IMG/VR virus record: IMGVR_UViG_3300032893_000213
Location: 1-32,455 of that record
Direction: 5' to 3' (one strand)
Source of the DNA: a virus
Length of the DNA stretch: 32,455 nt
This document shows, in pieces, positions 5,565 through 29,618 of the stretch (the stretch's first letter is position 1; each line of letters opens with the position of its first letter). The notes beneath the pieces are model-generated. The model searched no databases, was not told where the DNA came from, and saw nothing but the letters and a program-made list of their open reading frames with translations. The position numbers were made by a program, and so were the translations under genes.

Positions 5565-5656
5565 TTATAAGTAGAGTTATCTTGGATTTTTACGACTAAT
5601 AGCGCTTCAGGCACATATAATGATCACACTGGATTCTTTATTATTTATTATTATTA

Positions 5657-6089: not shown

Positions 6090-6109
6090 CAACATACCGC
6101 TAGAACACT
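6090..6109. repeat. Left arm of a perfect 20-bp inverted repeat
   Basis: This 20-base sequence is the exact reverse complement of 7758-7777. The pair encloses the GC-rich gene 6168-7703. Within one leftward RNA the two arms could pair over 1.65 kb. Confidence 0.85.
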
Positions 6110-6167: not shown

Positions 6168-7703
6168 CTAATCTGCAGCTTCTTTGCTTTCTTCTTCGCT
6201 AATATCTTCGTCAATGACACCCAATGGCTTACCATTTTTATCAATCCACAAGGTATCACCAGATGCTTCATCATACTTAATGTACTGGGACAGAACGCGG
6301 TAGATTTCACCAAGCGTTGAAGCAAGCCGAGTTGGTGGAACCTTCTCGGAATAGCGGGTAAGCCTGAATAGCGCCATCGCATCGAACAGGTCAGCGACAG
6401 AAATCAGACCATACTCGCTCATTGCCTTGCTATGTGTGATATCCTTTACCGATGCGGTTAGGGTATCAACAACACGCCAAGTTTCGGGCATGTTAAGCGG
6501 CCCAATCTTGCTTTCGGCAAGCCTTGTGACCTCAGCCGCATGTTGCTTTTCCATTGCAGCAATCTTTTTGTTAGCTTCGTCGAGTGATTGCGGCTTTTTG
6601 TTTGCCTCTGTTTGCGTTCCACCAGTCTCACGCTTAGCCTTGGCTTGCTTCAGCAGCATACCAGTAGGCCATTTAGAACCGGTGGAAGTTAGATCATAGG
6701 TTAGCTCTGCATCGCAGAAGTGATGTTGATATAAAGCAAACCGCCAATCTGCATTTAGATGGCGCAAGCTTATATCTTCGTTGGGAGTTTCTGGCCTGAG
6801 AACATTAGTTTTCCCACCATCGCGTTGCCCCATATTGTATTCCCAAGGGATGACTACGTTGGTAGGAATGCAGATTGTCACATGATAGTTGTCCATTGTC
6901 TCGGTTAATTGATCCGCACGCATGAATACCATGCGACGGCTAAACCGTTTGCCAGACACTTCACTCTTGCGAATGTAACCTCTGACAACACCAGTCTTAT
7001 GCTGGTAGAGCAATAAACAGGCAAGCATAGAGGCATCCTTGATTACCGAAGCATTAGCTCCCTTGTAAGGGTTTACTTCGTCAACGATAATCTTAGATCT
7101 TTCCATCCCACGAAGTTTGACCATCTCCCCGTGTGTATCTTCTATGACAAGAGTATCGCCGAAGAAGTTACGATCCTTACAGTATTTCGTAAGGGTTTCT
7201 GCCATAGCAGCATTAGGGAAGATTGAGGGAACTACATTCCCTTCTTTGTCAGTAGAAACCAAACCAGCATAACCGAAATCAGCCATATCAATGGCAATTC
7301 TGGTTATCAACGATCCGATCTCGTTGTCCAATGTCGATACATTAGCTAATGCCTCTTGAGCATCGACCTTAATATCGGCACCTGAGCGATTTGGTTTGGG
7401 ATAGTGTGCAACGATATCAAGGCGAATAGCCTCAACTTTCGTTGCTGCCTCGTTTGCTGTAGGCTTTGGTATAGTCTCAGCCTCAAGAGCAGCTTTGTTC
7501 TGCTCTTCTTGATAGCGAACCATATTGTCCCCGTCTTTGACCGCTTGGTTAGTGGTCGCAGGGATAGGAGCAGCCTCAACACTTGCGTTAGCAAGCGTAT
7601 CATTTACCAACTTTTCCTGTTCAGGTGACAATTGACTACCGACAGGTTGGTTAACCTGTTCAGCAATCTTCGCAGACTGAGACTTAGTGTTAGACTTAGC
7701 CAT
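6168..7703 (-). CDS. GC-rich 511-residue protein of unknown function
   Basis: I chose the ATG at 7703 (MAKSNTKSQSAKIAEQ); upstream in-frame codons to 7751 lie in structured leader. Residues 1-110 are Ala/Gln/Glu-rich and probably disordered. A mixed alpha/beta core follows, with FGYAGLVST and VIPWEYNMGQRDGGK among its segments. A coiled coil covers about 375-400 (EANKKIAAMEKQHAAEVTRL), and the C-terminus is acidic (EDISEEESKEAAD). Base composition is visibly richer in G and C than flanking genes, and it is bracketed by a 20-bp inverted repeat, three hairpins upstream and a 13-bp hairpin downstream. It looks acquired as a unit with its own signals. I see no catalytic motif and no family. Confidence 0.75.
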   Translation of the reverse strand: MAKSNTKSQSAKIAEQVNQPVGSQLSPEQEKLVNDTLANASVEAAPIPATTNQAVKDGDNMVRYQEEQNKAALEAETIPKPTANEAATKVEAIRLDIVAHYPKPNRSGADIKVDAQEALANVSTLDNEIGSLITRIAIDMADFGYAGLVSTDKEGNVVPSIFPNAAMAETLTKYCKDRNFFGDTLVIEDTHGEMVKLRGMERSKIIVDEVNPYKGANASVIKDASMLACLLLYQHKTGVVRGYIRKSEVSGKRFSRRMVFMRADQLTETMDNYHVTICIPTNVVIPWEYNMGQRDGGKTNVLRPETPNEDISLRHLNADWRFALYQHHFCDAELTYDLTSTGSKWPTGMLLKQAKAKRETGGTQTEANKKPQSLDEANKKIAAMEKQHAAEVTRLAESKIGPLNMPETWRVVDTLTASVKDITHSKAMSEYGLISVADLFDAMALFRLTRYSEKVPPTRLASTLGEIYRVLSQYIKYDEASGDTLWIDKNGKPLGVIDEDISEEESKEAAD

Positions 7704-7722
7704 GATTTCGCTCCATTGCTGG

Positions 7723-7805
7723 TTGAGACAAGGATTTGTCTCAAAGAACACTTAGCAAGTGTTCTAGCGGTATGTTGATGACAGTCACTAACTAGTGGCT
7801 GTCAT
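7723..7805 (-). promoter_or_regulatory. Three stacked hairpins in the leader of the 511-residue gene
   Basis: In leftward order: 7805-7778 (ATGACAG/CTGTCAT with a further inner stem), 7764-7746 (GAACACTT/AAGTGTTC, 3-base loop) and 7744-7723 (TTGAGACAA/TTGTCTCAA, 4-base loop). They end 19 bases before the ATG. Only a weak GGAG-like site is seen. Control of translation by structure is likely. Confidence 0.6.
7758..7777. repeat. Right arm of the perfect 20-bp inverted repeat
   Basis: Exact reverse complement of 6090-6109. It overlaps one strand of the middle leader hairpin, so the long-range and local pairings would compete. Confidence 0.85.
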
Positions 7806-8938
7806 TTGTGGGAATCCAGTGTGATCTCTCAGGGAACGTTCTGTACCCCTGTAGCAAGCCGACAGCCTATTGGCTTAGATGCTTGCCTGATCGCCTGTGC
7901 ACGCTGTTGTTATTACCTGCGGCACTAACAGGGGAAGCGTTACGCGCTTACCAGTCCGGGAGAGAGATTTAGTTATTCGTCTTTAACCTCCTTACGCAAT
8001 TAGTGCCACCTACTGAGATGGGTATTAAACAAGTACCTTTCAAGGGGCAGATTTGTTTAATCTGTTTACCATTTCAGTATAGCTATTATCTCATATACGC
8101 ATAGCTAAGTCAAATCTGTAACAGTGAGTTGGCATGATTCTTGCCCAAATAGTTATTTTGACTAAAAGTTGTATTTTTAAGTACACCCTCTAGTAGGCCA
8201 TTACTGATTACAGTTAAAGATAACTGTTTAGGTAGAACTATTAAGGAGATACTGTAAGAGTTGTTATTAGTTACACAAAAAAACAAACATTAATTATCCC
8301 CCTATATATCAACCTAAGTGTAAAACCTTATAGTTATTCCTAACGATTACTTGAATGAATACTTAACGAATATTGTAGTGACTACATATAGTTAGTAGCC
8401 TTTAAGTATGACACTAGTGGTTGATTTAGGAGGGTGCTAGGACCATGTAGCCCTAATTATAATTCGTATATTTAAACATTACAAAAATTCAAAATTAAGT
8501 TTTTCAACTAAATCAATCCTTTAGGTTGATAACCAAGATCAATCTTTAAGAATATTTTCTAAAAAAAATACAGAATTAGAATATCAACCAATGTTAAGGA
8601 GAAACTTGAAGGAGAACTATAGAGGTATAAGGTGGAGAAGACATAGTTACCCCTTTACGGAATAACTATGTTTCTGAGCTATAAGTATGGAGCCAGATCA
8701 TACAGGATAGGTAAACCCAATCAGCTTTTAGCTGATCAGGGAAAGCAGGTTAGCGGTCTCTTTTTACTACCAAGTTATCATCTAACGGAGGATTGCTGCT
8801 AGCCTTCCTGTGACTAACAGTCCTTGTGGGTAATTCTCCCACTCACTTGTTAATGGGTACTTCTTTTGGCAGGTGTGCTTATGGTCTATCGTCCCACTGT
8901 GAAACACACATAGTATGGCCTTTAAAATTATACTACGT
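7806..8938 (-). ncRNA. 1.1-kb gene-free, hairpin-rich region; candidate long structured RNA
   Basis: No ORF with a ribosome site is present in any frame. Transcription would start at the leftward promoter 8939-8967. Many local helices are visible: ACATAGTTA/TAACTATGT (about 8642-8672), an 11-bp CCC(T)GATCAGCT/AGCTGATTGGG hairpin (about 8718-8742), GTGGG/CCCAC (8826-8842), CAGATT/AATCTG (about 8050-8066), AAGCG/CGCTT (about 7936-7950) and a long GCAAGC/GCTTGC arm with an inner AGCC/GGCT (about 7854-7888). Base composition shifts from GC-rich (7.8-8.0 kb) to AT-rich. Size and setting recall large phage RNAs such as GOLLD or ROOL, but I cannot match either. It could also be a long leader of the 511-residue gene. 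Confidence 0.45.
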
Positions 8939-8967
8939 ATTATATCATACTTTCACTAAAATGTCAA
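8939..8967 (-). promoter_or_regulatory. Sigma-70-type promoter, leftward half of the divergent pair
   Basis: On the minus strand: consensus TTGACA, 17 bases, consensus TATAAT. The predicted start is near 8932, so it would transcribe the hairpin-rich gene-free region toward the 511-residue gene. Confidence 0.8.
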
Positions 8968-9000
8968 GAAAAATATTTTACTAAAATGTAAATTTTTTTC

Positions 9001-9029
9001 TTGACAAATTCATCAAAATGTGGTATAAC
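9001..9029 (+). promoter_or_regulatory. Sigma-70-type promoter, rightward half of the divergent pair
   Basis: TTGACA at 9001-9006, 17 bases, TATAAC at 9024-9029. The predicted start is about 9036, the very A of the first ATG. Confidence 0.75.
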
Positions 9030-9035
9030 CAAGTT

Positions 9036-10367: not shown

Positions 10368-10564
10368 AATATTCAATTGAAGAATTAGATAAAATGAGAG
10401 AATCTATTGGATGGATATTAAAATGTAAAGGATTTAGTGGTAAACCTATAGATTACTTTAAAACTAAAGAAGAATTATTAAGAACTTATATGATTAATGG
10501 TACTACAGTAGAAGAATTAAAAGCAAAAGAAATAGAAGCATTAAATAAATTAAGAGGCAAATGA
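10364..10564 (+). CDS. Small helical hypothetical protein
   Basis: 66 residues, MKYSIEELDKMRESIGWIL..., with a charged helical C-terminus (TVEELKAKEIEALNKLRGK). The ATGA overlap with the upstream peptidase gene and the overlap with the sulfotransferase start suggest a coupled trio. No family recognised. Confidence 0.5.
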   Translation: MKYSIEELDKMRESIGWILKCKGFSGKPIDYFKTKEELLRTYMINGTTVEELKAKEIEALNKLRGK

Positions 10565-11310
10565 TTAATTTCATTTCTGGTCTACCAAGATCAGGATCAA
10601 CTTTATTAGTAGCAATACTAAAACAAAATCCTAAATTCACAGTTAATATAAGTTCCCCTTTAGCTGATTTATTTATTGCCTGTGATGCAGGCTGCTCTAA
10701 AGAGAGTTCTGTATTTATCAATCAAGAACAAAGATTAGATATTCTTAGAGGATTGTTTAATAGTTATTATAAGAAAACTTCTAATATTATATTTGATACT
10801 CATAGATTCTGGAATTCAAGAATTCATATTTTATCTGAATTATTTCCTGAAGCAAAATTTATATCTTGTGTCAGAGAAGTTGGATGGGTAGCAGATTCTT
10901 TTGAAAAGCTTTATAGAAAAAATAATCAACAAGCATCAGCATTATATGGATGGACTACTGGTGGGAATGTATTCAATAGAACTAGACATTTATTAGAAAA
11001 AGATAATGTTATAGGATTTAGTCTTAATTCTACAATAGAGGCAGTCAATAGTAAACAAATTAAATTAATTGATTATGAGCTTCTATGTAGATTTCCTGAA
11101 GAAGTAATTAGAAGTTTATATGAATATATTGAAGAAGATTATTTTGGACATCACTTTAGTAGTATAGAATATAGCACAGACGAATTTGATTTAAAGCTAG
11201 GTAGTCCTGGATTACATAAAATCCAAGGACCGATTGAGTGGAAACCTAGACAAACTATTTTACCCCTTGAGCTTTTCAATGAAGCTAATCAAGGGAATTT
11301 TTGGAGATAA
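10561..11310 (+). CDS. Phage-encoded sulfotransferase
   Basis: A 249-residue protein with the PAPS-dependent sulfotransferase fold signature: FISGLPRSGSTLL at residues 4-16 is the 5'-phosphosulfate loop. The region CVREVGWVADSFEKLY (about 101-116) corresponds to the 3'-phosphate-binding segment (R, then S eight to ten residues on). It would move sulfate from PAPS to a hydroxyl or amino group. The acceptor may be a surface polysaccharide, lipid or small molecule; nothing here decides. The length is usual for the short bacterial family. As an accessory metabolic gene it may alter host surface or signalling. The ATG overlaps the preceding stop. Confidence 0.75.
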   Translation: MINFISGLPRSGSTLLVAILKQNPKFTVNISSPLADLFIACDAGCSKESSVFINQEQRLDILRGLFNSYYKKTSNIIFDTHRFWNSRIHILSELFPEAKFISCVREVGWVADSFEKLYRKNNQQASALYGWTTGGNVFNRTRHLLEKDNVIGFSLNSTIEAVNSKQIKLIDYELLCRFPEEVIRSLYEYIEEDYFGHHFSSIEYSTDEFDLKLGSPGLHKIQGPIEWKPRQTILPLELFNEANQGNFWR

Positions 11311-12347: not shown

Positions 12348-12559
12348 TGATTAATATATTATTATCAGTACTTTTAGCTTCGTCTAGTTATGGGGGTTAT
12401 GGGACTGGATATGATAATTGCTATAATTTTCCTAATAGCGATTGTTATAGCACCTTTTATCCAAATACATCTGTTCCCCCAGGAAATAATTTAACAGCCG
12501 ATGATGGCTCTACCGTATTAACAGCCGATGATGGCTCTACTGCTTTAACTGCAAGGTAA
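12347..12559 (+). CDS. Small exported or membrane-linked protein with tandem repeat
   Basis: 70 residues: hydrophobic start MINILLSVLLASS, then a Tyr/Asn/Cys-rich middle (YDNCYNFPNSDCYS) and two copies of a 9-residue unit, LTADDGSTV/LTADDGSTA. The DNA repeat is at 12491-12544. It lies directly before the fibre genes. Function unknown. Confidence 0.5.
   Translation: MINILLSVLLASSSYGGYGTGYDNCYNFPNSDCYSTFYPNTSVPPGNNLTADDGSTVLTADDGSTALTAR
12491..12544 (+). repeat. 27-bp tandem repeat, two copies, in frame
   Basis: 12491-12517 and 12518-12544 differ only near their ends and encode LTADDGST plus one residue each. Recent slippage in a coding sequence. Confidence 0.8.
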
Positions 12560-12561
12560 AA

Positions 12562-13440
12562 ATGATAAAGAAAATTTCAGCTATTGTTTTAGGGCTTTTA
12601 CTGATTAATCCTGCCTATGCTACGGATTTTAAAACGTTTATTCCTGCTCAATCTACAGCTACAACTCCTGGAGCTACAGATTATTATCCTTTAGTACAAG
12701 GGGGGGCCACTAAGAAAGTTGCTGGAACTAGTTTATTATATGCTCCTAACAATCTTTCTGATTTGCCCAGTCCTTCTGCTGCAAGGAGTAATCTATTGCT
12801 TGGGGGATTTGCTGTTCTAACTCCAGGTACACTTACAAATACCAAATGGTGTATCTCTGACGGTACTACAATTAGTTGTACTCAAGATGCCCCGGTTCTG
12901 GTCAATGGCGCGCTCGGCACGCCGACTAGCGGCACGCTTACGAATGCAACTGGGCTTCCCTACAGCGGTCTTGCGAGTGGCACAAACACGACGATGGCTG
13001 CTGTCATCGGGACTGGGGGTTCGCTCACCTTCAGCGGCAGTGGTTCGATTAATGCGTCGGAGGTCAAAGGCGATGCCAATGTAACGTTTTTGGATGTGAA
13101 CCAATCCTTTACCAAGGGACAGGCGATTACGCCGAATGCCTTGGGAAGCGTGACGGGCGCGACGGCGATTGATGCCAGCACCGCCAACGATTTTACGATG
13201 TCCACGACTGGCAATATTACGCTCTCTAATCCGACCAACCTCAAGGCCGGGCAGACGCTGAATTTCTTCATCACCTACGGCGGCACACACACGGTCACGT
13301 TGGGTAGCGAGTACCAATCTGCGGGCGGGACGGGGACGTTGGCGTTCAGTTCGACCAATGCTGAGGAAGACGTGCTGACCTGCCGAACTCCCGACACGAC
13401 GCATCTTGTCTGTTCGCTGATAGCCAACGTGAGCCACTAA
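12562..13440 (+). CDS. Secreted or fibre-like chimeric protein, AT-rich head and GC-rich tail
   Basis: 292 residues. A signal-like start (MIKKISAIVLGLLLINPAYA) is followed by Thr/Ala/Gly-rich repeats. The first 110 or so codons use the phage's AT-rich style. From about 12885 the codons turn sharply GC-rich and the protein reads GALGTPTSGTLTNATGLP, a repeat-type sequence widespread in tail fibres of phages of alphaproteobacteria. The frame is continuous across the join, so this is a fusion by recombination rather than a broken gene. Tail spike or fibre is the likely role, although a signal peptide is odd for a virion protein. Confidence 0.65.
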   Translation: MIKKISAIVLGLLLINPAYATDFKTFIPAQSTATTPGATDYYPLVQGGATKKVAGTSLLYAPNNLSDLPSPSAARSNLLLGGFAVLTPGTLTNTKWCISDGTTISCTQDAPVLVNGALGTPTSGTLTNATGLPYSGLASGTNTTMAAVIGTGGSLTFSGSGSINASEVKGDANVTFLDVNQSFTKGQAITPNALGSVTGATAIDASTANDFTMSTTGNITLSNPTNLKAGQTLNFFITYGGTHTVTLGSEYQSAGGTGTLAFSSTNAEEDVLTCRTPDTTHLVCSLIANVSH

Positions 13441-16115
13441 TGCTGCGCCGTCTTCTCCTTGCGTTCGGGCTGCTATGCGTCCTTGCGACCCCCGCCCTTG
13501 CGACCACGACTTTCACGGCCGGAACTAACTGCCCCGCTGGTTTCAATGTCACAGGAGGCGGACTCACCGTAGCCAGCACGGCGAACGGGTATCAAACCTG
13601 TTTCGCCAACAATCCGAAGTGGTCCGGTCTGAAGTATTTCGAGGTCACATTTGTTACGAACGGCAATCTTTATGTTGGCTTGGCAAACAACGGCAACGGA
13701 TCGCCCTTCGCGGGAGTCCCAAGCGCTAACGGCGGCTGGTCGACTAACACAAACAACTACATAGGGGTCAATTATACTTCCATCAGCTATCTCCACACTG
13801 TAAGCAGCGGCGCGATCTATTGGGGAAACAATGCGCTCAAGACATCAATCGGCACGACATCAGCCAGTCAAGTCGTCGCTATCGCAGCAGACTTCAACAG
13901 CAATCCACCGCAGTTTTGGGTAGCGCCAAACGCTACCAATCTGGTCTGCAATGGCAGCGGCGGGTCTGGCAGCTCCGCTCCGCAATACAACGGGAACTGC
14001 ACCAGTGATCCGAGCATTCCGGGTTCTGGGGCTGGGAACACGGGCGGCACTGGCGTTAATTTCTTTCTACAGGGATTTGCCTATTTTCCTGTGTTCCAAA
14101 CCAATGGCACGGGGCAATCGGCTACCTATAACTTTGGAGGATCAGGCTTCGCTGGGGTGCTGCCAACTGGCTACAGCTCGTGGGATGATAATTCCGACAG
14201 CAGCAGCAACGCACCAAATCCGGGGCCGACGAATGCGGTAAGCCTCAATATTGCAAATGCTCCGGGCTGGGCTGCGAGCACGTCGTATGCCGCCGGGAAG
14301 CGGGTCGTCGCAGGACCGGGTTGGGCGCCAGGTTCTCCAGGTTCCTTTACAAGCGGCTCGGCGCTCTATCTGTGGGCCATTCAAGGGGCTGGCGGCACGT
14401 CGGGCGGAAGCCCGCCTGCCGGCTTCTCTTCCTGCCCGACTCCGGCAGCATATGGCGGCGGATTTACGGGATCGACCCCTTCGCAGTGGTCGGGCGCAAC
14501 GACAGTCAGTGACAATGGCCTGACGTGGGTGTGTTTGACGAAAGTCGATAACGTCACTCTGACGGGGGCATTTTTCGACACGAGCACGGCATGGTCAGCG
14601 GGAGCCACTTTCTACTACGGGCAACGTGTAACCAATACGGCTGGGCAGGTCTTCAAGATGACCGCTGCACGCAGCTCGCCCTTTACTTGCACGACGGGCG
14701 GTTCCGCGCCGTCTTGGGTTACAACCACGCTCTACGTATCTACCACGAGCGACAATACCTGCACCTGGACCTACGTTGCATCGACGCTGGTTTATTCGTC
14801 GCAGACAGGATATTTCCCGCCCCAGGTCAATTACGCTGGGTCTTCCACCTATCCCAATGCCGGGTTCAATTGGCCTCTTACCATAAATGTTTGGTACGGG
14901 GGCTCGGCACAACAGCTTTATCAGCCAGGGCAGAACAACGAGAACATCCCGCTGTTGATGACCGATCACGGCACGTTGACCGATGGCGCCGGCACGATTG
15001 CTGAGTGCAAAAATGCTTATTTTTTCAGTGCCTACGTCCTATTCAGCCCATCAAGCGCGAATGGTGGGTTGAATGCTTGCGCTGGACTGTACTCAGTAAC
15101 TGGGCTAAATTTCACCGTGGCTCCTGGCGACAGTATAGTGGACAATGTTGCAAATCGATTGGGGGTGGACTCGACAAAAGGTGTTGAGATTTACAACAAC
15201 GCGACGCCGACTGGATCGTGGCAATATTACTATACCGAAGGCGAGTCCATCGCGATCGACGACACGGGAATGAACATCTCGCGGTTCCAGTTCGTCTCGA
15301 CGCAGGGGGGATGCCTTACCGGCGGGAAGTTCGGTGGTCCGGGGCTTGGCATCACCAACAACGACAATTTCTTTGACAACATAATGGATTGCGGCGGCAC
15401 CGCGTCTGGAGCGCGTGGTGCTTTTGCGATTGACGCGGGAGGATACGAAGCTAACAATCTAATAATCTATCGGGGCACGCAGGCAGGCAGCTTTGGCACT
15501 TTCTGTTTCTATCCCTGCGCCATCTTCAACAATACTATCGTCGGTAATAGTGCGACTAACGGCACAGCCATTCAGAATGACGCGCCAGCCGCGGGATTTT
15601 GGGCATCAGGGGGCTCATTCTTCCCGGCGCCCTTTAACAACAACGTCTTCATCGGATTTCCGAATTGCTGGGCTGTGAATACGACGAACTGGACATCGGG
15701 TAACATTTCCGCACAGACTGGAGCTAATAACGCCACTGATCGGGCAAGCTGTCCTACAGGCGGAACCTTTACCTCTACAGTAGGCAGGACATACACCCAA
15801 GAACTTCTGCCAGGGATAAGTGGCAGTGGGTGTAACGGGAGTGCCTCGTGCTATGGGTTAACGCCATCGACCGAATTTGTTAACCCGACTATTGGGTCTT
15901 CGGAGAATTTCAAGGTCAAGTCCACTTCGTCGTTGATATACAGCGGAGGAGGCGCTTTTAGCAAATCGACTGGTGGGTCGTGGATGGGAACCTTGGTTCC
16001 TGGGCCAGATATTTTCGGGACTGTACGTCCGGTAAGCGGTCGGTACGACATCGGGGCGGAGATGTTCGTTCCGGCTGCCGCTAACGGTTTGCCGCTGATC
16101 TTCGGGGTGCCGTGA
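12885..16115 (+). mobile_element. GC-rich foreign segment (fibre module swap)
   Basis: Base composition jumps from about one-third GC to well over half within a few codons at about 12885. It drops back just after the stop of the 891-residue gene at 16115. The segment holds the tail of one gene and all of the next. No transposase or repeat marks the ends, so recombination-driven module exchange is likely. Confidence 0.75.
13440..16115 (+). CDS. Large fibre or adhesin-like protein: SPRY-like, carbohydrate-binding-like and beta-helix regions
   Basis: 891 residues beginning with a signal-like MLRRLLLAFGLLCVLATPALA. Residues about 60-130 resemble SPRY domains (LKYFEVTF...NLYVGLANNGN). Around 275-310 and 385-415 are WxAxxxYxxGxxV segments (WAASTSYAAGKRVV, WSAGATFYYGQRV), the look of CBM5/12-type carbohydrate-binding repeats. 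The rest is Asn/Gly/Ser-rich with paired cysteines, like a right-handed beta-helix of a polysaccharide-binding or cleaving tail protein, ending with a YDIGAEMF segment as seen in secreted beta-helix proteins. Strongly GC-rich throughout. The ATG overlaps the previous stop. Domain names are by eye. Confidence 0.6.
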   Translation: MLRRLLLAFGLLCVLATPALATTTFTAGTNCPAGFNVTGGGLTVASTANGYQTCFANNPKWSGLKYFEVTFVTNGNLYVGLANNGNGSPFAGVPSANGGWSTNTNNYIGVNYTSISYLHTVSSGAIYWGNNALKTSIGTTSASQVVAIAADFNSNPPQFWVAPNATNLVCNGSGGSGSSAPQYNGNCTSDPSIPGSGAGNTGGTGVNFFLQGFAYFPVFQTNGTGQSATYNFGGSGFAGVLPTGYSSWDDNSDSSSNAPNPGPTNAVSLNIANAPGWAASTSYAAGKRVVAGPGWAPGSPGSFTSGSALYLWAIQGAGGTSGGSPPAGFSSCPTPAAYGGGFTGSTPSQWSGATTVSDNGLTWVCLTKVDNVTLTGAFFDTSTAWSAGATFYYGQRVTNTAGQVFKMTAARSSPFTCTTGGSAPSWVTTTLYVSTTSDNTCTWTYVASTLVYSSQTGYFPPQVNYAGSSTYPNAGFNWPLTINVWYGGSAQQLYQPGQNNENIPLLMTDHGTLTDGAGTIAECKNAYFFSAYVLFSPSSANGGLNACAGLYSVTGLNFTVAPGDSIVDNVANRLGVDSTKGVEIYNNATPTGSWQYYYTEGESIAIDDTGMNISRFQFVSTQGGCLTGGKFGGPGLGITNNDNFFDNIMDCGGTASGARGAFAIDAGGYEANNLIIYRGTQAGSFGTFCFYPCAIFNNTIVGNSATNGTAIQNDAPAAGFWASGGSFFPAPFNNNVFIGFPNCWAVNTTNWTSGNISAQTGANNATDRASCPTGGTFTSTVGRTYTQELLPGISGSGCNGSASCYGLTPSTEFVNPTIGSSENFKVKSTSSLIYSGGGAFSKSTGGSWMGTLVPGPDIFGTVRPVSGRYDIGAEMFVPAAANGLPLIFGVP

Positions 16116-16202
16116 GCCAATACATTCAAAATCAAAACTTATCTATTAAACAAAGAGTAAAATACACTTTCTATAATTTTTTCAATCAGGAGACTAAAAT
16201 AA

Positions 16203-17111
16203 ATGGCTATTAGCACATCTCAAACTATTGTTGATGTATCACATATTGTAGAACCCAATGCTCGCACAGCAGTAGATTATCTAGCGGATGTGTTAGCGAC
16301 AGCAGGTCTTGATGGGACTGGTACATTAACTATTGGCGGTACTAATACCGCTGCAATTACTGGTACTACTATTACTGCTAATACTGCCTTCTCAGGCCCA
16401 ACTACAGGCGTTGTAGCAGGTACTAATGCTGCTGCTGGTAAGGTTGGTGAAGTTATCGGTGGTCAGTTATTTGGTACTGCCACCACAGCTACAGTAACTA
16501 TTACTATTGCTGCTCCTGGTGTTGTCACTTGGACTGCTCATGGCTTCTCTACTGTAATCCCTCAGCCAGTTGTATTCACTACAACTATTGCCCTACCAAC
16601 CGGTATTACTTCTGGTACAGTTTATTACACTGTCCCTTCCTTTGTTACTACCAATACTTTCCAGATTGCTACCTCAATTGCTAATGCTATTGCTGGTACT
16701 TCTATCACCACTTCTGGCTCACAGTCAGGTGTACAGACTGGTACTGCCGGTTGTGCAATGGCAAATACTACTGTAATTGATGTTACTGGTATGGCCCTTA
16801 CTGCCGGTGATTGGGATGTGTGGGGAAGTATTTCTTGGAACCTTGGTACTACTACTACATGGACTAAGCTTGAAGCTTCAATTAGCCAGACTACTGCTAC
16901 TCTAGCAACTTCTGGTGCTGTTGTAGGTTCTTCCTATAGTTTACTTGCTCAGATTTCTGCTGCTGCTACCAATGGTGTGTCAACACTTGCTATTCCAATG
17001 TGTCAAGTTAATGTCAGCGGCACAACTAATATTTTTATGCCAGTGAAGGGTACATTTGCTATCTCTACTGCTGGCGCTTATGGCTTTTTATTTGCTAGAC
17101 GGAGACGATAA
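16203..17111 (+). CDS. Virion protein with shared N-terminal attachment domain
   Basis: 302 residues after a clear AGGAG site. The first 40 residues (IVDVSHIVEPNARTAVDYLA) resemble the start of the protein at 31229 (LVDVSQIDNRIIAQRIDYLA), which suggests a common docking domain. The remainder is Thr/Ala/Gly-rich beta repeat ending in FARRRR. Probably a tail fibre, head fibre or decoration protein. AT-rich again, right after the GC-rich island. Confidence 0.6.
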   Translation: MAISTSQTIVDVSHIVEPNARTAVDYLADVLATAGLDGTGTLTIGGTNTAAITGTTITANTAFSGPTTGVVAGTNAAAGKVGEVIGGQLFGTATTATVTITIAAPGVVTWTAHGFSTVIPQPVVFTTTIALPTGITSGTVYYTVPSFVTTNTFQIATSIANAIAGTSITTSGSQSGVQTGTAGCAMANTTVIDVTGMALTAGDWDVWGSISWNLGTTTTWTKLEASISQTTATLATSGAVVGSSYSLLAQISAAATNGVSTLAIPMCQVNVSGTTNIFMPVKGTFAISTAGAYGFLFARRRR

Positions 17112-26745: not shown

Positions 26746-29618
26746 ATGGCATTCCAAGTTGCTGCCGGTTGGCAGAATTTGCCGAATGGTTAGAAAATAG
26801 CCTATTATAAGAGTAATCTTATATTTAGCCACAGCAGGTTAATTGCTGGAAACTCCTTATTAAGGACAATCAGCAGCTAAGCATTAAATTTTTGCAAATA
26901 TGCTATAGCATTTAATAAACGATTTTCATTATCTTTAAATCTACCTAATCCTATATTACAATCATGACACAATAAAGCTCTAATTTGTCCAGTTGTATGA
27001 GAGTGATCTACACAAGGTTCATCTTTAGGAAACGGTTCTTTACAGATTTCACAAACAGGATATAAATCTAGAAGTTGTTTATATTGTTCTTTAGATACTC
27101 CGTATTTATACTTAACTATATTAAATCTACGAATTTCTTTAGAAGAATTTTTTTTACTGCGTAATTTGAAACAATAAATACATTCAGTAGCATAACCATT
27201 TCTTGGTTTACCGTTTCTAATTCCATTTTTATAATATTCTGTTTCTTCGTTTTTAAATTCTTTACAAGTTCTACATTGTTTAAGCATTAATTGTACAAAT
27301 CCTTTCTTTTTTATTTTGTCCAATTATATCATATTTTTGATAATTTGTCAAGTAATTTTTTGAAAGTTCAACGACTATCTCGTAAGAGAGTACATCTAAG
27401 TAGATGGAAATGCCTGCCATCCTAATAGGATGAAGATATAGTCTGGTCTTTATGGTAACATAAAGCAGCGAAAGCGGTCTTAGATTAACGAACTAAGACG
27501 AACAAAACGAATTTCGTTCCTCAGATTTTTAGCCAAAAAGTACAAAAATTCTTTCGGCGAGAATCAGTAGTAGAAGCAATTACAAATACTGACTACTATG
27601 GAGAAATTTCAGAATTCGGTGATACCGTATTTATCATCAAGGAACCAGTAATCACTGTTGCTCCATATGCTCGTGGCACCACTGTATTACCACAGGCTTT
27701 AGCAGATGATGAATTAACACTAGTCGTCGATCAGGCCAATTATTTTGGCTTTAAGGTTAATCATAGCCCTGTACATTAGGAATAATGTAATTGAAATTAG
27801 GAGAATTGCTGGAAAGTGCTAATAAGAACCAAAAATCTTATTCAAAAAGATTATAGGTTAACAGTTAAAGGAAGATTAGTATCTATTTATAATAGTGCTA
27901 AGAAAAGATCAAAACTAAAGGATATAGAATTTACTATTATTCCAGAAGATTTAGTAGAGATTTATTATAAGCAAAATGGAAAGTGTGCAATATCTGGCTT
28001 AGAAATGAGTTTAGAATCTAGTTCACGACATAAAGCAAATACTTTTATTGTATCCATAGATCGAATTGATTCAGATAAAGGTTATACAAAAGATAATATT
28101 CAATTCTTATGTTGGCAAATAAATAAAATGAAAAGCAATCTAACAGAAGATGAATTTAAATTTTGGATTAGGATAATCAGCAGCCGAGTCCTCTAAAAAG
28201 GAAAGGTTCAACGGCCATCCCTGAAATGGGAGTACACTTTAAGTAAAGTGGAAGTACCTAACATCCAGAACGGATGAAGATATGGTCTGATCTATATGGT
28301 AACATATAGTAGCTTAAGAAGCAGCTAAGAGTAACGAACTTAGTGAACACAAATGCGATGATATCGAAAACAAACAATCACACGTAAACTGGGAAGAGCT
28401 AGCAACTAGCTCTGGTGCATATTCTCTAAAGGATACTTTCGATAAGGAAGTCCTTTATTATATGACCACTCAGGTTTCTACTTCAAATCCAAACATGGTT
28501 CTCGGCTCTGCCGGTGCTCCATTAACTGTTGGCTTTGCTAGTGGTAATACTTCCCCTCTTTATGTGCTTAATAGGCTTTCTCGTTTCTTAGATGAACAAA
28601 ATATTCCTTCAGATAATCGTTGGTGTGTCGCACCACCTGTTAATACAGATAGCAGGGCTTAAAAGTAATTTTAAGAAAGAATTCTAGGTGAATTGCTGGA
28701 AAATCCTTAAAAGGACAATCAGCAGCTAAGCTAATAAAATATGAAAAAGTGTAGAATTTGTAATATTGTTAAATCAATCCAAGAATTTCGTCCATATGGG
28801 GGAAATAGAAAAGGAGTAAGAACTCTTTGTAGAAAATGTGAACTGGACATAAGAAGAAAATATGAATATCCTTATCGTGCTGAAAAAGCAAAATATTATA
28901 AAATAAAAGATCGATATGGATTGACAAAAGAAGAATATGATTCTCTAATAGAGAATAATCCAGTTTGTAAAAGCTGTAAAGAAGAATTTACAAATACTCC
29001 ACATGTAGATCATGATCATAAAACAGGAATAGTTCGTGGTCTATTATGTAATAAATGTAACAAAGCATTAGGACTTTTAAATGATGATCCTATTAAGATT
29101 GTAAATTTACTACAATATTTATTAGAAAGTTCAGAGACTATCTCGAAAGAGAGTACACTCAAGCGAGTGGAAGTGCCTAGCCCCTAAATAGGGTGAAGAT
29201 ATAGTCCGATCCTTATGGTAACATAAGGCAGCTTGAATAAAGCGGCATTAAAATAGCAATTTAATGTGAACATAAATGTTTCTGGGAAAAAGTTCAAGAT
29301 GAATCAAGCAAGCTAATTGGTATCGATTGGCAGTCAAGTGCTAGCGATCAGTCAATTCTACGTAACGGTCGTGTTCTAAACGGCAAGATTCGTGGTTTTG
29401 ATTCTTATCGTAGCAACAACATTCCTCTCGATAGCTCAAGCAATTATCAGCTTATGGTTGGTCATATGAGTTCAACTGCATCTGCCTCACAGATTGCTAA
29501 GGTTGAAAAGTTCCGTGATCCAACTTCATTTGCAGATGTTGTCCGTGGTCTTCATATGTTTGGTCGTAAGGTTCTCCGTACGACTGCTATGGGCCTCTGC
29601 CACTTCCTCGTCAGCTAA
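26746..29618 (+). CDS. Major capsid protein, split into four exons by three group I introns
   Basis: Exons 26746-26790, 27510-27757, 28356-28640 and 29279-29618 join to 306 codons (305 residues) in one frame; no exon is a gene alone. The joined protein starts MAFQVAAGWQNLPNG|NFVPQIF, runs through NYFGFKV|DDIENKQ and CVAPPV|FWEKVQ, and ends LCHFLVS, a typical major capsid protein of this phage type by sequence flavour, length and position. Each 5' splice site follows a T and each intron ends in G, as group I introns require. Without splicing, translation stops after codon 15. Codons here are richer in G/C-ending forms than neighbours, as for highly expressed capsid genes. Confidence 0.88.
26877..27287 (-). 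CDS. Intron 1 endonuclease, endonuclease VII/HNH type, antisense to the capsid gene
   Basis: Start chosen at ATG 27287 (MLKQCRTCKEFKNEETEYY), with GAAAGGA upstream; the longer frame begins in the promoter. 136 residues with an N-terminal zinc ribbon CRTC...CIYC, then CEICKEPFP...CVDHSHTTGQIRALLCHDCNIGLGRFKDN. C-x2-C, D-H-x-H, G-x-(I/V)-R-x-LLC-x2-CN-x-x-LG is the endonuclease VII (T4 gp49-like) fold used by many homing nucleases. It has its own sigma-70 promoter (27323-27351), so it can be made when the late strand is silent. Confidence 0.8.
   Translation of the reverse strand: MLKQCRTCKEFKNEETEYYKNGIRNGKPRNGYATECIYCFKLRSKKNSSKEIRRFNIVKYKYGVSKEQYKQLLDLYPVCEICKEPFPKDEPCVDHSHTTGQIRALLCHDCNIGLGRFKDNENRLLNAIAYLQKFNA
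27323..27351 (-). promoter_or_regulatory. Sigma-70-type promoter inside intron 1 for the antisense endonuclease
   Basis: On the minus strand: consensus TTGACA, 17 bases, consensus TATAAT, about 30 bases from the start codon. Same design as the leftward-region promoters. Confidence 0.8.
27758..28355 (+). ncRNA. Group I intron 2 in the capsid gene
   Basis: 598 bases. Same td-like core: GAATTGCTGGAAA, then after the ORF AATCAGCAGC; P7 is GGCCAT with ATGGTC (compensating changes relative to introns 1 and 3); P9 is CTATATG-GTAA-CATATAG; the 3' end is GAACACAAATG. The 5' site splits a GTC valine codon (GT|C). Its ORF lies in the P5 arm. Confidence 0.85.
27816..28196 (+). CDS. Intron 2 HNH endonuclease, embedded in the ribozyme P5 arm
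   Basis: 126 residues from GTG 27816, just after the 5' strand of P4. It reads NSAKKRSKLKDIEFTI..., YYKQNGKCAISGLEMSLE..., FIVSIDRIDSDKGYTKDNIQFLCWQINKMKSN. C-x-I-S-G, then S-x-D-R-I-D-x-x-x-G-Y-x-x-x-N-(I/V)-Q, then (N)-x-K-x-x is a well-known HNH nuclease pattern. The last codons (ATC AGC AGC) lie in the P4 3' strand, so protein and ribozyme share bases. A GGAGAA precedes by 12-16 bases, so initiation may be weak. Confidence 0.75.
   Translation: MLIRTKNLIQKDYRLTVKGRLVSIYNSAKKRSKLKDIEFTIIPEDLVEIYYKQNGKCAISGLEMSLESSSRHKANTFIVSIDRIDSDKGYTKDNIQFLCWQINKMKSNLTEDEFKFWIRIISSRVL
28641..29278 (+). ncRNA. Group I intron 3 in the capsid gene
   Basis: 638 bases. GAATTGCTGGAAA ... ACAATCAGCAGC core; P7 is GACTAT with ATAGTC; P9 is CCTTATG-GTAA-CATAAGG; the 3' end is GAACATAAATG. 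P1 is clear: exon CCTGT pairs with intron GCAGG, including the splice-site U-G pair. The 5' site splits a valine codon (GT|T). The ORF starts in the P6 region. Confidence 0.87.
28741..29187 (+). CDS. Intron 3 endonuclease, endonuclease VII/HNH type
   Basis: 148 residues, MKKCRICNIVKSIQEFRPYG. An N-terminal CRIC...CRKC ribbon is followed by CKSCKEEFTNTPHVDHDHKTGIVRGLLCNKCNKALGLLNDD, the same family as the intron 1 enzyme but clearly diverged. About the last 17 codons (from SETISKEST) run through the P7 5' strand and the P3/P8 region of the ribozyme, so the C-terminus is dictated by RNA structure. No good ribosome site precedes the ATG. Confidence 0.8.
   Translation: MKKCRICNIVKSIQEFRPYGGNRKGVRTLCRKCELDIRRKYEYPYRAEKAKYYKIKDRYGLTKEEYDSLIENNPVCKSCKEEFTNTPHVDHDHKTGIVRGLLCNKCNKALGLLNDDPIKIVNLLQYLLESSETISKESTLKRVEVPSP

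Follow-up and report, generated by a model that had tools for sequence, protein, structure and literature searches.

The pRNA of phage phi29 is an early phage RNA of about 170 nt, made from a strong host-type promoter, that serves a packaging motor of a different kind from that of the phages discussed here. The RNA discussed below would resemble it in its strong host-type promoter and presumed early timing, whereas the terminase of the phages that carry it consists of the usual small and large subunits. Much larger phage and prophage RNAs are known as GOLLD and ROOL, which assemble into homo-oligomeric cages and are frequently found close to tRNA islands, with many GOLLD members exceeding 800 nt (PMC12286853). 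We analyzed a linear fragment from IMG/VR with a length of 32,455 bases (hereafter the window), for which a preliminary description had proposed that a hairpin-dense, gene-free stretch of more than 1 kb behind a consensus promoter could be a large ornate RNA of the GOLLD/ROOL kind, an origin or packaging signal, or an extremely long leader. Like GOLLD, the presumed window RNA is large, structured and set in a phage genome, and with ROOL, which also occurs in prophages, it shares the character of a large structured phage RNA; it has, however, no sequence or covariance match to GOLLD and no covariance match to ROOL, and does not lie beside tRNA islands. An Rfam covariance search of the gap returned zero matches at gathering thresholds and none relevant at E<=10, so that the RNA is not GOLLD, ROOL, OLE, HEARO or another Rfam family. 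Sub-gathering matches (MIR828 on the plus strand, FTHFS and others) were implausible and were taken as chance. A giant cage-building RNA would fit the size, the phage context and the dense structure at both ends of the gap, but given the empty Rfam result, the length of only about 400 nt of the RNAs in related phages and the lack of an adjoining tRNA array (a tRNA-like sequence is located at a distance of 6.7 kb) we regard this reading as extremely improbable. What stands of the earlier proposal is its more general part: a large structured RNA behind a promoter is the best reading of the locus, and comparative data support an RNA at the same site in related phages.

The terminase of the window shares 59% identity with its counterpart in Pelagibacter phage HTVC033P, the next-best matches are other HMO-2011-type phages, and the portal protein falls into the SU10 family. 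The contig is an HMO-2011-type podophage. Gene orientation changes at about 9 kb, from leftward on the left side to rightward on the right side. At this divergence, no open reading frame of at least 60 aa exists on either strand between positions 7752 and 9017 (1266 nt), which confirms the gene-free stretch of more than 1 kb. No other gap of this kind in the window is as long (the next one measures 665 nt), and the longest stop-free run within the 1266 nt, 59 codons, is the lowest value among all 1.2-kb stretches of the window. Readthrough of single stops opened at most 136 codons (plus strand), and none of the resulting hidden proteins was convincing. Two aspects of the initial claim had to be adjusted. 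The left edge, placed at 7806, extends to the ATG of a leftward 511-aa gene at 7703, and the length, described as striking, is so within this genome but ordinary for the phage group: gaps in 17 relatives range from 354 to 1341 nt and the window gap is thus not exceptional.

The consensus promoter announced for the start of the gap was found on the minus strand at 8967-8939. It is a sigma70-type promoter (TTGACA-17-TATAAT, extended -10) that matches 12/12 consensus positions and reads into the gap, with an expected transcription start at about 8932. An opposing promoter (TTGACA-17-TATAAC, 9003-9031, plus strand) would drive the rightward genes. Three same-direction copies of the repeat TTYAYYAAAATGT (at 8952, 8977 and 9010, spanning 8951-9022 on the plus strand) lie in or between both promoters and are possible operator sites. 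A weaker promoter-like sequence (TTGACT-17-GATAAT, 8113-8085, minus strand) matches 10/12 positions; the regional count of such sites is near chance, and it could provide the 511-aa gene with its own start. The promoter scan as a whole yielded 11 sites compared with 9.6 in shuffled sequence, which is no excess, and the site at 8967-8939 is distinguished by its perfect score. The presumed noncoding transcript or leader would accordingly span 8932-7703 on the minus strand and end at the ATG of the 511-aa gene.

Folding of the minus strand over 1213 nt gave a minimum free energy of -330.9 compared with -278.0 +/- 9.3 for dinucleotide shuffles (z -5.7), a global value that is inflated by uneven composition; the plus strand folded over the same length reached z -6.2, and values of up to -5.4 occurred elsewhere in the window. 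In 140-nt windows, the mean minus-strand z was -1.79 inside the gap vs. -0.56 outside, while the neighboring coding sequence folds at least as strongly as the gap (mean z -2.4). Structure is found in a 5' domain at 8916-8611, with z values of -1.9 to -5.2 on the minus and -1.4 to -1.8 on the plus strand; in the local scores it extends over 8890-8611 and is stronger on the minus strand. At the other end, 7910-7701 is structured alike on both strands (z -3 to -5), and three tandem, near-perfect hairpins (7805-7778, 7765-7745 and 7744-7723; minus strand) stand immediately 5' of the ATG, which are not clear terminators because they lack a U-run. The middle of the gap (about 8610-8261) is AU-rich and mostly shows z values near zero, so that the reported hairpin density holds for both ends but not for the center. 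A helix closing the entire 1.1 kb (8916-8890 with 7838-7814) was no better than in shuffles (p about 0.09). The AU-rich, weakly structured middle and the lack of a close homolog would be expected of a decayed gene or functionless spacer; we consider this improbable in view of the perfect promoter, the strand-specific structure and the RNAs found at the same site in relatives. A similarly low probability, if anything slightly lower, is given to a replication origin or packaging site whose hairpins act as DNA. The cumulative GC skew turns at 7-8 kb with its minimum in the region, the hairpins at 7910-7701 are equally strong on both strands, AT-rich repeats lie between the promoters, and the record ends of several cultured relatives fall in the gap. 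The skew, however, tracks gene direction, and this switches at the same place; the structure of the 5' domain is found chiefly on the RNA strand, and in relatives a directional RNA motif is retained on one strand, behind a promoter.

The equivalent site in relatives is recognizable as a gap without genes, set between divergent promoters and located several kb upstream of the terminase, and in most relatives examined a structured RNA is encoded within it on the strand opposite to the terminase. Scanning about 100 related loci for divergent promoter pairs showed that many share this architecture, with divergent promoters followed by a gene-free minus-strand stretch. Common to related loci are the short motifs GGTTWACA, then ATTTT, and then a C-run with CTGCAT about 55 nt later; searching these loci against Rfam gave no convincing match. 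An 11-12/12 promoter is positioned 29-117 nt ahead of the core in 21 of 27 tabulated relatives. The gene that follows is convergent in most relatives. In HTVC033P, the RNA of about 400 nt closes with a GGGGCTAT...ATAGCCCC hairpin directly before the convergent gene gp84, and is thus a stand-alone transcription unit in this phage. HMO-2011 and locus G006 (terminase 61%) instead have a co-directional next gene, like the window. In G006, divergent perfect promoters are followed by a gene-free, hairpin-rich leftward stretch and then by a leftward gene, which has its own promoter-like site (TTGACG-17-TAGAAT).

Three covariance models were used, built from nine cores (R1), from 23 cores (R2), and with more distant members added and the window left out (R3). 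R1 found further loci as well as HTVC033P (30.7 bits, E 1.5e-6). Outside its training set, R2 matched CRP-1 (39.1 bits), CRP-345 (36.7), the spring phage MW202701 (29.5), CRP-603 (23.2) and HMO-2011 (20.8), in every case within the gap and opposite to the terminase. Modeling on metagenomic phages thereby located the core, at the expected position and strand, in the cultured phages HTVC033P, CRP-1, CRP-345, CRP-603 and HMO-2011. CRP-3 and HTVC115P gave no model match, and CRP-235 and HTVC104P only weak ones. The first helix, P1, is short and AU-rich; 70% of its structure cells are paired compared with 65.7% in shuffles (0/500 as high) and at most 57% in slid registers, and among 31 sequences one of its pairs is an A-U in 13 and a G-C in 10. 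The second helix of the model, P3, is poorly conserved (46% of cells). Both helices were set by hand and the alignments fitted by covariance model, and covariation counts thus lean toward P1 and P3; on the nine-sequence seed alignment neither helix showed covariation in excess of shuffles. RNAalifold predicted no pairs on a plain MAFFT alignment of the core, and a candidate G-run/C-run helix in relatives was dropped for lack of covariation (p 0.73). Comparative folding, suggested by the preliminary description as a check on the RNA, thus revealed paired changes in P1 of relatives beyond those of shuffles and slid registers, but none on the nine-sequence seed.

The window gap itself is gene-free, lies between divergent promoters and would encode its RNA on the strand opposite to the terminase, and it is the positional counterpart of the gaps in relatives. 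Whether its RNA also belongs to the family was addressed with the same models. There was no convincing blastn, nhmmer or R1 match between the window RNA and relatives, with R1 giving no match in the gap at all. The best R2 match in the gap (8529-8418, minus strand) scored 7.1 bits, and R3 tentatively placed its best match at 8529-8417 (17.9 bits, E 0.0014), on the correct strand in the gap. This match tops the whole window, eight bits above the next, and the maximum in a control of 90 kb of AT-rich related phage DNA without the RNA was 11.8 bits. The match is AU-rich, and in the R3 alignment 4/7 pairs of P1 are kept while 3/7 are broken. Compared with the RNAs of relatives, with which it shares site, strand and gene-free, structured character, the window version shows a borderline core match, is longer and has a half-broken P1; its core lies 404 nt from the start vs. 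29-117 nt in relatives with strong promoters. It also does not appear to stand alone as in relatives, since the co-directional 511-aa gene comes next and no terminator was seen. Owing to the half-broken P1, the abnormal spacing and the co-directional gene without a terminator, we hold membership in the family to be possible and unproven, the region being by this modeling a potential diverged member.

The 511-aa gene (7703-6168, minus strand) has no homolog in the collections searched and a strongly structured coding sequence with a G+C content of 46%, above most other genes of the phage. Structure prediction for its protein gave no confident fold (pLDDT 39). A terminator-like hairpin, GCTAGGGGTATCC-gtaa-GGGTATCCCTAGC with a T-rich tail (6150-6111, minus strand), is located 3' of the gene. 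An exact 20-bp inverted repeat flanks the gene (6090-6109 and 7758-7777), and a second shared 15-mer, GAATCCAGTGTGATC, occurs near 7812 (plus strand) and near 5635 (minus strand). The arrangement bears on the suggestion of an extremely long leader, in which the whole gap would be one structured 1.2-kb 5' leader controlling translation or stability of the 511-aa mRNA. This is in line with the co-directional gene without an intervening terminator, the three tandem hairpins ahead of its start codon, its structured coding sequence and the terminator-like hairpin behind it. On the other hand, most relatives have a convergent next gene, for which their RNA cannot serve as a leader, the weaker promoter at 8113-8085 could serve the 511-aa gene separately, and the co-directional gene of G006 has its own promoter-like site. 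We therefore judge a leader spanning the whole gap to be unlikely, while a leader role is quite plausible for its last part, as there is no terminator between the gap and the 511-aa gene.

The explanation we favor, and consider reasonably probable, is that positions 7703-9017 form the divergence gap of an HMO-2011-type phage, with a structured noncoding RNA that acts early and in trans and is probably a diverged relative of the family RNA. The gene-free gap, the promoters, the structure, the conserved site and the core in relatives are established; transcription, early timing and function of this divergence-gap RNA we infer along the following lines. Two back-to-back host-type promoters would start the rightward structural arm and the leftward noncoding RNA, the latter being made by host polymerase once the DNA enters. 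Starting at about 8932, the window RNA would comprise the strongly folded 5' domain (8916-8611) and, probably, the diverged family core (8529-8417). As no terminator follows the RNA, transcription would most likely reach the 511-aa gene by way of a leader rich in hairpins (about 8330-7703), where the three tandem hairpins may set message processing or stability. The RNA would most likely contribute to early takeover by acting in trans, either as folded RNA or within an RNP; a switch for the neighboring gene is not favored because the next gene is convergent in most relatives. We lean against, but would still entertain, the more specific proposal that HMO-2011-type phages share an undescribed early trans-acting RNA that has here grown to one RNA of about 1.1 kb, which might cooperate with the 511-aa protein encoded directly behind it.

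Neither the RNA nor the 511-aa protein had a homolog in blastn searches of phages and plasmids, tblastn searches of phages, a search of genome contigs, 44 related IMG/VR records, or IMG/VR protein and DNA-pattern scans. The DNA-pattern matches were chance, and the handle-based protein searches carry little weight because they returned nothing anywhere. The literature searched on HMO-2011-type phages, which included few subscription journals, describes abundance and genome order; the one paper examined for a noncoding RNA does not mention any, and literature searches for such an RNA gave nothing relevant. The divergence-gap RNA, found neither in Rfam nor in this literature, is apparently undescribed. 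If our reading is correct, it would be an overlooked early product, at a fixed genome position, of an abundant phage group. The occurrence of its core in cultured phages such as HTVC033P and CRP-1 makes it directly testable in infections.

Several features elsewhere in the genome deserve mention. A G+C island of about 50-58% at 12500-16500, in a genome otherwise mostly at about 30-40%, contains long glycine- and serine-rich open reading frames and is probably an acquired tail-fiber region. A phage-encoded sulfotransferase-family protein (Pfam PF13469) lies at 10561-11310 on the plus strand. The major capsid gene (27507-29615, plus strand) is divided among three exons with 91-92% identity to an uninterrupted relative; its insertions show group I intron scores just under the Rfam cut-off and encode HNH/endonuclease VII-type genes. 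At 1006-930 (minus strand), a tRNA-like sequence whose acceptor and T arms are good and whose CCA is encoded scores 45.1 bits with the Rfam tRNA model (gathering 29). It was missed by ARAGORN and by the whole-window Rfam scan, and lacks an anticodon since the anticodon loop consists of the four nucleotides GCAA. A glutamyl-tRNA synthetase-like protein of 310 aa is encoded at 4523-3591 (minus strand) and lacks the anticodon-binding domain, as it matches the bacterial GluRS model (470 positions) only over the first ~309. The anticodon-less tRNA and the truncated synthetase-like protein together suggest a dedicated pair.
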